Shown: in pieces, positions 14,258-45,213 of the stretch | Layout: every line of letters begins with the position of its first letter | Numbering within the stretch: position 1 is the first letter of the stretch | DNA from: Ilyomonas limi | GTDB lineage: Bacteria > Bacteroidota > Bacteroidia > Chitinophagales > Chitinophagaceae | NCBI RefSeq assembly: GCF_005233845.1 | Contig: NZ_SZQL01000007.1 | Span: forward strand, 62,001 to 126,000 | DNA length: 64,000 nucleotides | Direction of reading: 5' to 3' | Program-made: the position numbers and the translations under genes | Notes under the pieces: model-generated | What the model saw: only the letters and a program-made list of their open reading frames with translations | Database searches by the model: none | What the model was told of the DNA's origin: nothing

Positions 14258-14330
14258 TGTGAGTGGTGAATAGTGAATTGTCAATTGTGAATAGTATGCA
14301 GGTGAGTGTTGGATTGTCAGTTATGAATTT
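14258..14330. repeat. AT-rich gtgaattgtcaattgtgaa-type interspersed repeat
   Basis: Positions 14269-14292 match 23546-23569 at 22 of 24 bases and match the reverse complement of 43131-43154 at 22 of 24. The element lies in the gap between the Gfo/Idh/MocA and isomerase genes; a short inverted fragment (tcactattca, 14371-14380) sits near the other end of the gap. Confidence 0.65.
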
Positions 14331-19672: not shown

Positions 19673-20047
19673 ATGCAAGAAGGAAAACGTCAGCGACAGG
19701 TAGCAAGTGTAATACAGGAAGAGTTCAACGAGATTTTCAGGAGATTGGGATTGAACATGCTGAATGGCGGTATGGTGTCTATTTCATCGGTAAAAGTAAC
19801 GCCCGACCTGCTGGAAGCCCGCATTTACCTAAGCTTTTATCAGGTAAATGATAAAAAAGCTACGCTTAAAAGAATAGAAAACAGCGCCTGGGAAATTAAG
19901 AAAGAATTTGCAGAACGCGCCAAGCACCAGCTACGCCGCATACCCGTGCTGCACTTTTATGAAGATGATACGCTGGAGCATGTGTTTAAGATGGAAGAAT
20001 TGTTTAAACAAATACATCAAACGCCTCCATCCCCTGAAGGGGAGTAA
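19673..20047 (+). CDS. rbfA: Ribosome-binding factor A
   Basis: Small-subunit maturation factor with a single KH-like domain, acting late in 16S processing. The start (EGKRQRQVASVIQEEF), the strand VKVTPDLLEARIYLSF and the C-terminal LRRIPVLHFYEDDTLEHVFKMEELF match the family over about 115 residues. The last residues, TPPSPEGE, are not part of the normal protein: they are encoded by a GC-rich palindromic repeat (20027-20044) in which the stop codon lies. Divergent from the MsbA-like gene and upstream of the LolC-like permease, an arrangement I recall as common in Bacteroidota. Confidence 0.93.
   Translation: MQEGKRQRQVASVIQEEFNEIFRRLGLNMLNGGMVSISSVKVTPDLLEARIYLSFYQVNDKKATLKRIENSAWEIKKEFAERAKHQLRRIPVLHFYEDDTLEHVFKMEELFKQIHQTPPSPEGE
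20027..20044. repeat. GC-rich palindromic repeat at the rbfA 3' end
   Basis: The 18 bases ccatcccctgaaggggag are the exact reverse complement of 20213-20230. The core cccctgaagggg is itself palindromic. It encodes the last residues of RbfA; a further GC-rich inverted segment (ccgccagccggcgg) follows to about 20074. Confidence 0.75.
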
Positions 20048-20177
20048 GCAGCCCCCAATCCGCCAGCCGGCGGAGAGTTTTTAAACAGCAAAGAAGTCAT
20101 TTTCCCAAAGAAAAAGAAGACATGCATCAACATGTTTTCGGACATATTACTTAATACAAACAACGAATATTAATATA

Positions 20178-21491
20178 TTGCAAACATCCCATCAGACTAC
20201 GAAGCTTAAAAACTCCCCTTCAGGGGATGGGGGATTTTCCCCTTCAGGAGCAGGCGGGCGTCCGCTCGGTTTCCTCCGTTGGCTGTTTGCGTGGCGGTAT
20301 TTCCGTTCCAAAAAAACAACTAATGCAGTCAATGTTATTGCATGGATAAGTGTGTTGGCGATTGCCGTTGGCGCGGCAGCGCTCATTATTGTATTAAGTG
20401 TATTTAATGGTTTCGAAGACCTGGTAAAAGGCTTGTACGGCGACTTTTATGCAGATGTACGCATTGCGCCGTCAAAGGGTAAATTCATGACTATTTCGCC
20501 TGAGCAGATGAATGCCATTAATAAAGTAAATGGTATAAAAGCAGTGAGTTTTGTGGCAGAAGAAAAGGCACTATTGGTAAATGGCGATGCACAAACTATT
20601 ATTTACCTCAAAGGTGTTGACAGCAATTACCTGAAAGTAAGCAGGCTGCAAAATCATATCATGCACGGCGAGTACAACATTGGCGATGCCGATAACCCGC
20701 TATTGATATTAGGCGTAGGTGTAGAAAGTGCTATTGCTACTGATGCCAGCGAAAGTGCAACGCCATTTGTTATTTACCTGCCCAACCGTAATGCAAAGCA
20801 CTTCAATAGTCTCGATGCGATGAACTCGGCGAATATTAACGCCTCGGGTTCTTTTTTGGTTCAGCAGGAGTTTGATAATAAGTATGCATTTACTAATCTT
20901 CCTTTTGTACAATACATGCTCGACCTGCAACCCAACCAGTACAGCAGCATTGAATTAGCCTTAAAGCCGGATGTAAATGAAAATGAAGTACAGCAACAGT
21001 TACACGCCGCCCTGGGCAAGTCGTTCAATGTGCAAACGCGTTACCAGCAAAATGCCAGTTTATTTGGGGTGATGCAGTTGGAAAAGTGGGTTATTTATTG
21101 CATTCTTTGCCTGATCTTGTTAATTGCGGCTTTCAACATGATTGGTGCACTCACGATGCTGGTGTTGGAAAAACAAAAAGATATAGCTGTGCTGAAAGCG
21201 ATGGGCGCTACTAATAAAATGGTGCAGGGTATTTTCTTAAATGAAGGATTGGTATTAGCAAGCGTTGGTGGTGGCGGCGGCATTATACTCGCTTTTCTAA
21301 TATGTATTGCTCAACTCAAACTCAAAGTTATCAAGCTGGAAGGCGGTACTTTTTTGATAGATTATTATCCTGTAAAAATGCTGTTGAGTGATTTTATTTT
21401 GGTGACTGTTACCATAATTATTGTTGCCTTATTAGCGGCCTGGTTGCCATCGCGCAAAGCAGCGCAGCAGTTTTTTTCGTTGAAGAGTTGA
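20178..21491 (+). CDS. FtsX-like / LolC-type ABC permease
   Basis: Membrane permease of the MacB/LolC-FtsX class, about 437 residues, which may extract lipoproteins or other amphiphiles from the inner membrane. A first transmembrane helix (about residues 52-75) follows the family start WLFAWRYFRSKK. A large periplasmic domain comes next (about 76-310), then three C-terminal helices with the FtsX core (MLVLEKQKDIAVLKAMGATNKMVQGIFL). No ATG exists in frame before the first helix: the frame opens after a TAA at 20082 and the best start is the TTG at 20178. About 30 N-terminal residues, including SPSGDGG and SPSGAGG, come from the repeat at 20213-20257. No ATPase gene adjoins it. Confidence 0.85.
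   Translation: MQTSHQTTKLKNSPSGDGGFSPSGAGGRPLGFLRWLFAWRYFRSKKTTNAVNVIAWISVLAIAVGAAALIIVLSVFNGFEDLVKGLYGDFYADVRIAPSKGKFMTISPEQMNAINKVNGIKAVSFVAEEKALLVNGDAQTIIYLKGVDSNYLKVSRLQNHIMHGEYNIGDADNPLLILGVGVESAIATDASESATPFVIYLPNRNAKHFNSLDAMNSANINASGSFLVQQEFDNKYAFTNLPFVQYMLDLQPNQYSSIELALKPDVNENEVQQQLHAALGKSFNVQTRYQQNASLFGVMQLEKWVIYCILCLILLIAAFNMIGALTMLVLEKQKDIAVLKAMGATNKMVQGIFLNEGLVLASVGGGGGIILAFLICIAQLKLKVIKLEGGTFLIDYYPVKMLLSDFILVTVTIIIVALLAAWLPSRKAAQQFFSLKS
20213..20257. repeat. GC-rich palindromic repeat inside the LolC-like N-terminus
   Basis: ctccccttcaggggatgg is the exact reverse complement of the copy at 20027-20044 and matches 44451-44470 at 19 of 20 bases over a slightly longer span. A second half-copy (tttccccttcaggagcagg) follows. 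The element is translated as SPSGDGG then SPSGAGG. Confidence 0.75.
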
Positions 21492-23536: not shown

Positions 23537-23600
23537 AAGATTGTGAATGGTGAATTGTCAACTGTGAATATGTGATTGGCGCATTGTCAGTTGTGAGAAC
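23537..23600. repeat. AT-rich gtgaattgtcaactgtgaa-type interspersed repeat
   Basis: 23546-23569 matches 14269-14292 at 22 of 24 bases. It lies just upstream of the GT4 start and opens a false N-terminal extension in that frame. A second unit (attgtcagttgtgag) follows within the element. Confidence 0.65.
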
Positions 23601-23843: not shown

Positions 23844-24782
23844 TTATACTGAAACAATTTCAAGGATACGCTTTTTAGTTTCGTCGGAAAATGGTGTTTT
23901 TTTGGAAGTACGCTCGTTGCGGTTAGCTACAAAAATATTTTGCATATACGCCTCTACGTGCCTCGATAGCGGCAACTGCATATACTCCATGAGCTTGTAA
24001 ATGAACGTGTGCGGGTCTTTTACAAAATCTTCGTAGTGCGACTCGTACACCTGCAAGCCCAGCTTTTCTATTTCGTAAGCTGTAGTTTCCATCAGTTTAC
24101 GGTATTGAAAAGCAGTGATGAGCGCCGGATCGTTTTTCAGCTTTTCTGCTTCCGCTTCTTCTTCGGATGAATAGGCGCCAACCCACCACAAACGGTTGAT
24201 GCCTTTGGTTTGCCAAAAGCCAACTTCGAGCCATGAACGCACGGTGGCTATTGGCTCGCGCACAATATTTACAAAAATGGCATCAGGGAAAATAGAGTGT
24301 AAATATTCCAGTCTTGCCGGTCCGGTAAACTTCATAATCAGCCGCTTGCGTCCCTGGTATTTTACCTGTTTCGCCAAAAAAGAACGGATGTAGGTGCGCT
24401 CTTCTTCCGTAGCTTTTGTATCCAACAGGAAACCTCTTGAAAAGTCAATACGCGGTCCAGTGATTTTTTCCCAGAAATTATATCGTTCTATGGGATTGAA
24501 AATGGCGAGATTGATAAGTTGTTTACTCTTTTTTTGTCGCGTATTTTTACTTACCCCTACAAAATTCCAAAACTTCACCATGCGCCACCAGCTATTATCA
24601 AACAAGCGACGCAGAAAATTGATCTGCGGAAAGCGCGGAAATATTTCCTGGTAATTGGAATGCCACGCCAGATCTTCGTGCTGAAATAATATCTCGGAAA
24701 TAATGGTAGTGCCCGAGCGGCCACTGCCAAACAGGATAATTGGTTTTTGTAAAAGTGCTTCGTACTTGATTGTTGCAGCCAT
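23844..24782 (-). CDS. Sulfotransferase family protein, copy A
   Basis: PAPS-dependent sulfotransferase fold of 312 residues. The 5'-phosphosulfate loop PIILFGSGRSGTTIISEIL is near the N-terminus and the 3'-phosphate-binding strand is IFVNIVREPIATVRSWLEVGFW. It shares long stretches with the next gene (FWEKITGPRIDFSRGFLLDT) and is its tandem duplicate. The likely target is a surface glycan or lipid. The stop of copy B lies eight bases before this start, so the two are translated from one mRNA. The ATG at 24782 was chosen over 24797, which overlaps copy B. Confidence 0.83.
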   Translation of the reverse strand: MAATIKYEALLQKPIILFGSGRSGTTIISEILFQHEDLAWHSNYQEIFPRFPQINFLRRLFDNSWWRMVKFWNFVGVSKNTRQKKSKQLINLAIFNPIERYNFWEKITGPRIDFSRGFLLDTKATEEERTYIRSFLAKQVKYQGRKRLIMKFTGPARLEYLHSIFPDAIFVNIVREPIATVRSWLEVGFWQTKGINRLWWVGAYSSEEEAEAEKLKNDPALITAFQYRKLMETTAYEIEKLGLQVYESHYEDFVKDPHTFIYKLMEYMQLPLSRHVEAYMQNIFVANRNERTSKKTPFSDETKKRILEIVSV

Positions 24783-24789
24783 AAGGGTA

Positions 24790-25701
24790 TTAAGCAATTA
24801 CATTGTTGTCACCTACAATTTCTAAAATTTTCCTCTTCTGCTCTTCGGTGAAGTAGCTTTTTCTTTCTTCGCTGTTTTTAGTATTGCGGATAGGCACCCG
24901 AGCCATATAATCCTCTACCAGTTTGGAAGGTTGAAGTTGCAGCTTTCCCATTAAATCGTGAATGAAAGCTTTTGGATTTTTGATGAAGTCTTCGTAGTGC
25001 ACTTCATAAATCTCCGGCTTCATTTTTTCAATTTCATAAGCGGTGGTTTCGCTTAATTTTTTGTATTGAAAAGCGGTGATGAGTGCCGGCTCTGTAGCCA
25101 GCCTTTCTGCTTCCGCCTCTTCCTGGGGCGAGTAAGCGCCCGTCCACCACAACTGTGTTTTACCTTTGTCCTGCCAAAAATTTACTTCCAGCCACGAGCG
25201 CACGGTACCCAACGGTTCGCGCTGTACGTTTATAAATACGGCATCAGGAAAAATACTCATCATATACTCCATACGCGAAGGACCGGTAATCTTAAATGCC
25301 AGCCGCTTGCGCTTTTGATATTTTACCATTTTGGCAAAAAAGCCGCGCATATATTTTCTTTCTTTTTCTGTAGCTGTTGTATCGAGCAGGAAGCCGCGCG
25401 AAAAATCAATACGCGGACCAGTGATTTTTTCCCAGAAATTATATCGTTCTATAGGGCGAAAAGCTATCCAGTTCAATACACTTTTGTTGTTTTGCGTGTT
25501 CATGCCAATCTTTCGCCACCACTTATTATCAAATGCTCTTCTTAAGAGATTAACCGCTGGCGTCCAGGGAACTAATTCCTGAAAATTGTTGTGCCACGCC
25601 AAATCTTCATGCTGAAAAAGAATATCAGAAATGATAGTTGTGCCGGAACGTCCGGTGCCAAAAATGATAATGGGTTTGCGAAGCAGCTCTTCGTATTTCA
25701 T
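24790..25701 (-). CDS. Sulfotransferase family protein, copy B
   Basis: Second tandem sulfotransferase, about 303 residues, with the same P-loop (PIIIFGTGRSGTTIISDIL) and 3'-phosphate strand (VFINVQREPLGTVRSWLEV). Copy A differs mainly in the region after the P-loop and near the C-terminus, where acceptor specificity usually lies. An upstream Met at 25767 is possible; I chose 25701 (MKYEELLRKP) because copy A begins with the related KYEALLQKP. Both genes precede GT4 on the minus strand and fit a glycan-sulfation role. Confidence 0.83.
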   Translation of the reverse strand: MKYEELLRKPIIIFGTGRSGTTIISDILFQHEDLAWHNNFQELVPWTPAVNLLRRAFDNKWWRKIGMNTQNNKSVLNWIAFRPIERYNFWEKITGPRIDFSRGFLLDTTATEKERKYMRGFFAKMVKYQKRKRLAFKITGPSRMEYMMSIFPDAVFINVQREPLGTVRSWLEVNFWQDKGKTQLWWTGAYSPQEEAEAERLATEPALITAFQYKKLSETTAYEIEKMKPEIYEVHYEDFIKNPKAFIHDLMGKLQLQPSKLVEDYMARVPIRNTKNSEERKSYFTEEQKRKILEIVGDNNVIA

Positions 25702-43354: not shown

Positions 43355-44365
43355 ATGCTTCAACGCCGCCGCTTTATACAAACTGCCTCATTGGGCTTAA
43401 GCACTTTATTTACACAAAATCTTTTTGCGAAAAACAATGCAGTAAAAAAACCAATTGTGATTTCTACCTGGAAGGAAGGCATCAATGCCAATAAAGCCGC
43501 CTGGAATGTACTTCGCAATAACGGTCGTGCCTTAGATGCAGTGGAACAAGGTGTAATGGTCACCGAAAATTCTATTAATTGTTGTGTAGGACTGGGCGCC
43601 AATCCCGACAGAGATGGCTACGTAACGCTGGACGCCTGCATTATGGATGAGACAGGTAATGCTGGCAGCGTGGCAGCAATAGAACGCATTAAACACCCTA
43701 TTTCGGTGGCCAGAAAAGTAATGGAAAACACACCCCATGTAATGCTCGTGGGCGAAGGCGCACAACAGTTTGCGGTAGCACAAGGCTTTCCGATGGAACC
43801 GCAAATATTATCGGACAGCGCGAGAAAAGCGTATGAAGAATGGCTGAAGAAATCGGAGTATAAACCAAAGGTAAACATTGAAAACAGCGGTGCATTCGCC
43901 CCCAATAAACTAAGCAACGGCAATTGGAACCATGACACTATTGGCATGGTAGCAATGGATGCGGCAGGCAATCTGAGCGGCAGTTGCACTACCAGCGGTA
44001 TGGCTTTCAAAATGCACGGCCGCGTGGGTGATTCGCCTATTATTGGTGCCGGCTTGTATGTGGATAATGAAATAGGTGCCGCCACTTCCACCGGTCTTGG
44101 AGAAGAAGTAATAAAGATCTGCGGTACACACCTGGTTGTGGAATTGATGCGCCAAGGATTATCACCCGAAGCAGCCTGTAAAGCAGCTTGTGAGCGTATT
44201 GTAAAACGCAATAAGGGTAATGTAAAAGATATGCAGGTAGGTTTTATAGCTATCAATAAACAAGGTGAATACGGTGGTTACTGCATTCAAAGCGGGTTCA
44301 ACTTTGCCGTGTGTTATGGCGATGATCACAATGAGTTAATTGATGCAAAACATCTGATGCCCTAA
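43355..44365 (+). CDS. N4-(beta-N-acetylglucosaminyl)-L-asparaginase (glycosylasparaginase), Tat-exported
   Basis: Ntn-hydrolase that releases N-linked sugar from glycosylated asparagine, as in flavobacterial glycosylasparaginase. A twin-arginine leader (QRRRFIQTASLG) precedes ISTWKEGINANKAAWN with the conserved Trp39. The autocleavage site is GNWNHDTIGMVAMD: Thr195 becomes the new N-terminal nucleophile after cleavage at Asp194. Downstream, RVGDSPIIGAGLYVDN and TGLGEEVIK form the substrate pocket. At 336 residues it is full length. It is divergent from the BioF-like gene. Confidence 0.9.
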   Translation: MLQRRRFIQTASLGLSTLFTQNLFAKNNAVKKPIVISTWKEGINANKAAWNVLRNNGRALDAVEQGVMVTENSINCCVGLGANPDRDGYVTLDACIMDETGNAGSVAAIERIKHPISVARKVMENTPHVMLVGEGAQQFAVAQGFPMEPQILSDSARKAYEEWLKKSEYKPKVNIENSGAFAPNKLSNGNWNHDTIGMVAMDAAGNLSGSCTTSGMAFKMHGRVGDSPIIGAGLYVDNEIGAATSTGLGEEVIKICGTHLVVELMRQGLSPEAACKAACERIVKRNKGNVKDMQVGFIAINKQGEYGGYCIQSGFNFAVCYGDDHNELIDAKHLMP

Positions 44366-44430
44366 ATCCCTGAAGGGACTTTGAAAAGTCCTGAGAAATT
44401 TATTGTATTACTTTTATTTTGAATAATAAC

Positions 44431-45213
44431 ATGAAATCAAAGTTTATTTACTCCCCTTTAGGGGATGGGGGCACTGGTGGCGGTTTTCGCCTGGAAATTG
44501 CATGCTTTGATATTGCTTCTGCTATAAGAGCCTCCGCTGCCGGTGCAGACAGGATTGAACTGTGCGACAATGCTGCAGAAGGCGGAACTACACCCTCGTA
44601 TGGTATTTTAAAGCGGATAAAAGAATTGCTGCATATTCCCGTGTTTCCTATCATCCGCCCGCGGGGTGGTGATTTTTTGTACAGCAACGAAGAATATAAA
44701 ACAATGCTGTATGATGTGCAACTGTGCAACGATCTGGGTTTTGAAGGAGTGGTATTTGGTTTACTGACCAACATGGGCGCTGTTGATATAAAAAGAACCG
44801 AGCAACTGGTAAAAACAGCAGGCAATATGCAGGTAACATTTCACCGTGCTTTCGACAGGGCTGTTAATCCCTTTCATGCCCTGGAGTCGGCGATATATTG
44901 TGGTTGTAAGCGAATACTCACCAGCGGACAAGTACCCAATGCATATGACGGAAAAGAACTAATAAAGGAGTTGATAGAGCAAGCTGAAAATCGCATTATC
45001 ATTATGCCAGGCAGTGGCGTACGTAGCAACAATATTGCGGAGCTTGTTACTGATACAGGTGCTGTGGAAATACATTCCAGCGCAAGAAAAATGCAACCTT
45101 CTGCTATGCTTTTTACAAAGAAAAATATGCAGGAAACATTGGATACGATAGGTGTGGACGAAGTGGAAATAAGAAAGATGAAAATGACGTTGCAGAACTT
45201 ATCTGCTAATTAA
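44431..45213 (+). CDS. cutC: CutC family protein
   Basis: TIM-barrel protein linked to copper homeostasis in E. coli, though its exact biochemical role is not settled. IASAIRASAAGADRIELCDNAAEGGTTPSYG and VFPIIRPRGGDFLYS are signature blocks, with QVTFHRAFDRAVNPFHALE and RILTSGQ later. The first residues, KSKFIYSPLGDGGTGGG, are unlike other CutC proteins and are encoded by a GC-rich repeat; the natural protein would begin near FRLEIACFDIAS. The ATG at 44431 is preferred over the TTG at 44419. It follows the asparaginase gene by about 65 bases. Confidence 0.92.
   Translation: MKSKFIYSPLGDGGTGGGFRLEIACFDIASAIRASAAGADRIELCDNAAEGGTTPSYGILKRIKELLHIPVFPIIRPRGGDFLYSNEEYKTMLYDVQLCNDLGFEGVVFGLLTNMGAVDIKRTEQLVKTAGNMQVTFHRAFDRAVNPFHALESAIYCGCKRILTSGQVPNAYDGKELIKELIEQAENRIIIMPGSGVRSNNIAELVTDTGAVEIHSSARKMQPSAMLFTKKNMQETLDTIGVDEVEIRKMKMTLQNLSAN
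44451..44471. repeat. GC-rich palindromic repeat inside the CutC N-terminus
   Basis: ctcccctttaggggatgggg matches ctccccttcaggggatgggg at the LolC-like gene in 19 of 20 bases. It is translated as SPLGDGG. A related fragment (ccctgaagggactttg) lies just upstream at about 44370-44385, after the asparaginase stop. Confidence 0.7.

Follow-up and report, generated by a model that had tools for sequence, protein, structure and literature searches.

N-terminal leader of a LolC-like permease and its probable origin from a mobile inverted-repeat element related to DUF559 nuclease cassettes

Palindromes located in frame within genes are already known from the Rickettsia palindromic elements (RPE) and from REP sequences, as the available portions of two publications document (PMC10969869, PMC3733652). 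The RPE are described there as short palindromic repeats in coding genes that are tolerated at the termini or in loops of the proteins. REP/REPIN sequences with their RAYT and the TIRtrons form inverted palindrome pairs, some of them located in ORFs or at ORF ends, according to the accessible part of one of these sources (PMC3733652), and the other source, as far as available, describes promoter-supplying MITEs such as the Correia elements as small elements with inverted repeats that directly precede genes (PMC10969869). Nuclease-bearing, stop-free insertions that recur at the same sites of conserved genes are represented by the inteins and by ShiLan, for which the available excerpt reports no recognised splicing domain (PMC11855218).

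The repeat described here shares features with each of these systems. It is palindromic, dispersed in multiple copies and inserted in frame at positions where relatives lack it (ArgH and a permease) as in the case of the RPE, but judging from the partly available description of the RPE it differs in that its copies tend to lie at gene ends and appear to provide start codons, some of them being accompanied by a nuclease gene. As judged by eye, the GTAG or CGTC tag of REP/REPIN sequences does not adjoin the core in most copies and lies a few bases off in some, and the link of the repeat to Y1 transposases is weak. Like MITEs it has terminal inverted repeats, a length of tens to hundreds of bp and no gene of its own, the only gene found between such arms in this genome being one encoding a DUF559 protein; unlike MITEs it appears to bring a start codon and an N-terminal peptide. 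The DUF559 modules combine a nuclease domain, as assigned from sequence, with insertion sites that recur across genera as in homing elements. However, ShiLan conceals an out-of-frame HNH nuclease according to the accessible text, whereas DUF559 is encoded in the frame of its host and between palindromes.

In the literature searched, with preprints and most subscription papers outside its scope, no report of DUF559 as a mobile in-frame element was apparent. Within the same scope we did not find a non-splicing cassette of palindromes and DUF559 that brings the start codon of its host.

The permease gene under study is located behind rbfA in the window, i.e. the whole stretch of 64,000 nucleotides of Ilyomonas limi DNA that was analysed (Table 1). 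Its ORF is intact and encodes a MacB_PCD periplasmic domain followed by a C-terminal FtsX domain (Pfam), which corresponds to the architecture of LolC; the sole difference from LolC/FtsX-type ABC permeases sharing these two domains is the N-terminal leader. Orthologues were detected in 57 of the 59 searched genomes, its own included (E 1e-40 or better), and its own genome lacks a close second copy, the next best match having 25% identity.

As the original prediction had claimed, the reading frame is opened by the TAA at 20082 and the codon listing contains neither ATG nor GTG ahead of the first membrane helix. The next canonical starts past TTG 20178 are GTG 20352 and TTG 20355, both of them inside the first hydrophobic stretch. 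From TTG 20178 the leader reads LQTSHQTTKLKNSPSGDGGFSPSGAGGRPLG, and the claim that it is made from a repeat also held, since a GC-rich palindrome downstream of the TTG is read in frame as SPSGDGG-SPSGAGG and contributes to about 30 extra residues. We infer from the sequence that translation starts at TTG 20178. An ATG of another frame was considered as permease start and ruled out because the TTG frame is open and its product resembles the proteins of relatives.

Table 1. Position of the permease gene, its neighbour and the repeat arms in the window.
Feature	Position	Strand	Remarks
rbfA	19673..20047	+	Pfam RBFA at residues 6-111; last residues PPSPEGE and run-up to the stop formed by the left arm
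Left arm, inverted core copy	20019..20045	-	89% complementary to 20212-20238; core match 20024-20044 with 1 mismatch
Probable second, diverged left arm (…GCCCCCAATCCGCCAGCCGGCGGAGAGTTTTTAA)	20053..20084	-	20072-20084 92% complementary to 20206-20218; remainder by eye
AT-rich spacer between the arms	20085..20205	.	no detectable DUF559 remnant
LolC-like ABC permease ORF	20178..21491	+	437 residues counted from TTG 20178; MacB_PCD and FtsX above cut-off
Proposed start TTG	20178..20180	+	sole in-frame ATG/GTG/TTG from TAA 20082 to the first helix
Right arm	20212..20238	+	in-frame reading N-SPSGDGG-F
Second, partial right arm	20238..20257	+	80% identical to 20214-20233; reads SPSGAGG
CTC at the conserved start-codon position of relatives	20274..20276	+	orthologue alignment
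Right-arm copy near the N-terminus of a CutC-family protein (MKSKFIYSPLGDGG)	44440..44471	+	in frame

The strand of 20019-20276 folds far better than shuffled sequences (z -5.1, 0/200). Since each arm is accompanied by a further copy, partial on the right and probable on the left, two elements may be nested at this position. The spacer of the window yielded a DUF559 score of 22 compared to shuffle maxima of 30 and 28, and thus it is the arm family that links this copy to DUF559.

The start codons of the orthologues were compared at 84 distinct loci, the own locus included, after leaving out L115 and L124 with a partial start and the duplicates L071 and L122. At one conserved position, corresponding to residue 2 of the query, TTG occurs in 42 loci, ATG in 32, GTG in two and other codons in eight, so that 76 of the 84 loci have a start codon there; in the own locus the position is occupied by CTC 20274. 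All of the seven other exceptions (L050, L060, L065, L066, L067, L112, L120) have a start codon at another position, four of them two codons upstream. The open frame lacks any ATG or GTG in 42 of the 84 loci, indicating that a TTG start is normal for this permease gene. While the absence of an ATG noted in the original prediction is thus correct, it is not a peculiarity of this locus. The preference for TTG at a gene right behind rbfA looks unusual in itself, as a lasting choice of a weak start.

The rbfA stop and the conserved start are separated by 226 nt, compared to a median of 36 nt and a range of -4 to 207 nt in 80 relatives with rbfA upstream, and hence the junction exceeds the median by approximately 190 nt. 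Together with the CTC at 20274 this length indicates that extra DNA has entered the junction and that the old start is gone. The suspected displacement of the original start by an insertion is therefore backed by the CTC at the orthologous start, the repeat just upstream of it and the lengthened junction. No homologue sharing the N-terminal residues of the permease, which had been named beforehand as evidence to the contrary, was found among the 84 loci.

A scan for CCCC-loop-GGGG within 450 nt upstream revealed palindromes in five of the 84 loci (own, L041, L050, L073, L084). Among these, L041 retained its ATG downstream of the palindrome. In L050 (51% identical) the N-terminus is made from a different repeat of its own (MMKLSSPFRGTGG) and the conserved start codon is likewise missing, its place being taken by TTA; this resembles a parallel event. 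The RbfA C-termini of L040 (PKPEGE), L073 (QAPKGE) and L084 (PPTPEGE) resemble the left arm, and in these loci the gaps are short (53, 54 and 51 nt, respectively), the TTG start is kept and the right part is absent. The left arm may accordingly be older than the rest, and the arrangement in the window was possibly built by more than one event. In L103, L105 and L117 the junction is filled by other simple dispersed repeats (ATCCGTTAATCCG-like), and the variety of repeats may indicate that it is a tolerant landing site.

Genome-wide, CTCCCCTTYAGGGGNNRGGGG was matched 30 times with at most one mismatch, while its reversed-pattern control had no match, and a shorter core gave 51 rows compared to one for the control. 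Two of these rows read the same palindrome on the opposite strand, leaving 49 core sites. The repeat behind the permease N-terminus is consequently real and, beyond what had been noted before, belongs to a dispersed family fronting many genes. Fifteen core sites are traversed by an ORF that reaches at least 80 codons past the core start and has a start codon no more than 60 nt upstream; 13 of these ORFs, the permease included, use the same frame (S-P-x-G). No ATG, GTG or TTG occurs within 90 nt after the core in five of the 13 (this permease, CutC, a PurM-like protein, the C69 ABC permease and a MurG-like protein), and canonical initiation must therefore precede the repeat in these five. In the remaining eight a later start is possible, for some of them solely within the domain.

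In 11 of the 12 other leader ORFs, which were scanned against Pfam apart from an N-terminal fusion at C69:146605, every domain begins past the leader. The domains comprise a semialdehyde dehydrogenase (presumably ArgC-like), DUF58, a GHMP kinase (presumably ThrB-like), CutC, AIRS (which we take to be PurM-like), DUF559, a HAD hydrolase, a shikimate kinase, a Mur ligase, Glyco_transf_28 and an S-methyltransferase, the last three of which we assume to be MurC-like, MurG-like and MetH-like, respectively. At the CutC-family gene (window 44360-44471) a diverged left-arm-like string, CCCTAAATCCCTGAAGGGACTTT, is found about 60 nt upstream of the arm.

Copies of the core also occur in other positions of genes. 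A loop of ArgH holds the repeat (NSPLEDGG), and 15 of the 18 aligned relatives have no extra residues there; in the two best matches among solved ArgH sequences this loop is shorter by 8 to 9 residues. Three ArgH relatives (G015, G013, G009) carry other residues in the loop. Their inserts (L260, L261, L262) have sequences other than NSPLEDGG, and the insert of G013, SFGGDGG, resembles another palindrome-coded peptide. One antisense copy lies within an ORF taken for a histidine kinase, and four ORFs, RbfA included, terminate in or just past an antisense copy (PPSPEGE, APTPKGE, PPSPKGEQGNAQS, PPSPKEELSAV). Many of the remaining core sites are intergenic.

Two unrelated loci of this genome share 473 of 484 bases (98% identical), and each of the two blocks contains a gene for DUF559, a predicted Vsr-like nuclease. 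The right arm forms the end of the shared block. At both loci the stop codon of DUF559 and the ATG of the host gene that follows overlap (ATGAACAATAA), and from this ATG the host ORF continues in frame through the right arm; it encodes a DUF58 protein in one case and a GHMP kinase in the other. The conserved residues of DUF559 (KFRRQH, DF, E-x-DG, RF-N) and its match to the solved endonuclease-like protein 3hrl (E 5e-20) fit a PD-(D/E)XK nuclease, as far as can be judged from the sequence. A DUF559 protein of Caulobacter has been described as Vsr-like in the available part of a publication (PMC12907096). In one of the two copies (L163, C1:309080) the front arm has lost one base, which shifts the leader out of frame; an ATG is available further on.

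The ABC permease gene at C69:146605 has 24 bases identical to the DUF559 gene end, ATG included, followed by a diverged leader and then the right arm, but no nuclease. The retention of these 24 bases is evidence that leaders of this kind can be left over from a DUF559 element. The shikimate kinase gene (C2:142415) shows a weaker likeness to the DUF559 gene end.

The third DUF559 of the genome is inserted in frame in leucyl-tRNA synthetase (LeuRS), where 432 nt, mostly DUF559, lie between model positions 476 and 480. It is bracketed by another type of palindrome, which occurs at six places of the genome with at most two mismatches, two of them being those at the insert, so that inverted palindromes bracket all three DUF559 genes. 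As the only LeuRS of this genome over the family cut-off carries the insert, the cell appears to translate with a LeuRS that holds an embedded nuclease domain.

DUF559 matches spanned 76 genomes; 29 loci were kept for high-scoring matches and combined with the three modules of the own genome, and the modules were located with a regular expression favouring well-conserved ones. These 32 loci contain 34 modules, 25 of them within longer host ORFs and nine free, a share that is not a population estimate since the loci were chosen from high-scoring matches. The Pfam test covered 19 of the 23 host ORFs, L217, L222, L223 and L228 being named by likeness, and confirmed LeuRS as host in eight cases and MetRS, MetH (two domains), AroC, CinA, HsdR, an Lhr-type helicase and an amino-acid kinase as others. 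In the ArgB-like kinase DUF559 is N-terminal with NTPLADGG as the joint. Read from the translations, the modules occupy recurrent sites across genera in LeuRS (two sites, with two modules each in L212 and L214), AroC and MetRS. No intein (Hint, self-splicing) domain was detected in the 19 host ORFs at the thresholds used. One HsdR protein (L208, G075:C9) contains both GIY-YIG and DUF559 nuclease domains between its HSDR_N and SNF2-type domains.

Pairing between the flanks was compared with the 95th percentile of two controls: it was higher than in same-locus controls for 20 of the 34 modules, with 14 failing, and higher than in mispaired flanks for 11 of 34. None of the four MetH-type modules (L221, L222, L223, L228) showed pairing above the control.

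The repeat is present in 50 of 147 family genomes with up to 37 copies per genome, the reversed-pattern control giving one match. DUF559 was found in 42 of the 50 repeat-bearing genomes versus 34 of the 97 others (p 1e-8), which is a correlation among draft genomes without tree correction. With one genome per genus the association had p values of 3e-7 or 6e-6, and in 13 genera with discordant pairs DUF559 was commoner in the repeat-bearing member in nine, rarer in one and tied in three (p 0.02). Four genomes with at least five repeat copies (G070, G086, G143, G157) lack a DUF559 match.

We propose that a mobile inverted-repeat element consisting of palindromic arms and an AT-rich spacer entered the junction between rbfA and the permease gene, that the old permease start decayed after the insertion once it was no longer needed, and that translation now initiates within the extra DNA at TTG 20178. 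The element in the window would be a nuclease-less relative of the DUF559-bearing element, which in turn may spread when its palindromes, or conserved sites of housekeeping genes, are cut and undergo recombination. Such an element would be tolerated because the frame left open by its arms is harmless and because they supply a start codon upon landing at the 5' end of a gene. Judging from sequence, it is quite likely that an arm of a small mobile element is translated as the leader, with the old start lost after the insertion and TTG 20178 as the most likely start. The element in the window probably belongs to the DUF559 family, and the account as a whole appears moderately probable. That the DUF559 nuclease drives homing is a tentative suggestion.

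Alternatively, the repeat might be an untranslated leader acting as an RNA hairpin or terminator, with the permease starting downstream at GTG 20352 or at a non-standard codon such as CTG 20283 or CTC 20274. The arms indeed form a strong hairpin, at least eight of the 49 core sites directly follow a stop codon outside ORFs, and CTG 20283 is only three codons past the conserved start. However, this scenario seems unlikely taking into account that no stop interrupts the leader over two arm copies, that 13 sites have one frame in common and that five of them, including CutC and the PurM-like and MurG-like proteins, offer no canonical start for 90 nt past the core; a start at GTG 20352 would furthermore truncate the first hydrophobic stretch. 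A sequencing or assembly error at the hairpin concealing an ATG or a frame change is highly improbable. Hairpins are prone to sequencing error and the assembly is a draft of 70 contigs, but the frame stays open across the repeat, the same pattern is seen at many loci of this genome and L050 provides a parallel at the same junction.

The inverted palindrome pairs also resemble REPINs, and the repeat could accordingly be of the REP/REPIN type and mobilised by a Y1 tyrosine transposase (RAYT or TIRYT) with DUF559 as a passenger. Y1 genes are common (107 of 147 family genomes) and weakly linked to the repeat, occurring in 43 of the 50 genomes with it and 64 of the 97 without (p 0.011; one per genus p 0.09 and 0.02). 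The motif GGGGWSAS is common to the TIRs of some Y1 elements, as the available part of one source indicates (PMC3733652), and to the flanks of some DUF559 modules (right side 12/28, left side 7/28). It was found beside none of the 12 countable Y1 loci, though, and seven genomes with at least five repeat copies have no Y1 match. The core repeat was beside none of the 14 Y1 loci examined, six of which (L175, L177, L239, L240, L243, L244) have inverted flanks of other sequences unrelated to the CTCCCC family, and none of the 49 core sites is located within 20 kb of the five Y1 matches of the own genome. With the weak genome link and the absence of the repeat from the 14 Y1 loci examined, a RAYT/Y1 mobiliser is not supported and we regard this origin as rather improbable.

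Extending the proposed insertion of a DUF559-related element beyond this locus, palindrome-bracketed DUF559 cassettes may constitute a class of mobile elements that reside inside proteins without splicing. Their arms would be open in one frame, they would enter essential enzymes in frame and, at the 5' ends of genes, put their own start codon in place of that of the host, and their nuclease-less offspring would leave SPSGDGG-like tags, the permease leader included; we consider this generalisation possible, albeit not quite probable. If true, many bacterial proteins bear N-terminal tags left by a selfish element, start-site annotation is misled at repeat-fronted genes, and the widespread but functionally uncharacterised domain DUF559 is given a role, that of a homing-type nuclease, which can be tested. 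The DUF559 embedded in LeuRS makes the claim that no splicing occurs directly testable.

Another dispersed repeat of the window (GTGAATRGTGAATTGTCAATTGTGAATA-like) forms two tandem pairs at 14266-14329 and 23543-23599, and in some relatives, e.g. L081, TGA-rich strings akin to GTGAATRGTGAATTGTCAATTGTGAATA precede the permease. Two adjacent paralogous ORFs at 23943-24242 and 24904-25203, which judging from their translation we take to be sulfotransferase-like, are 68% identical over 300 nt.
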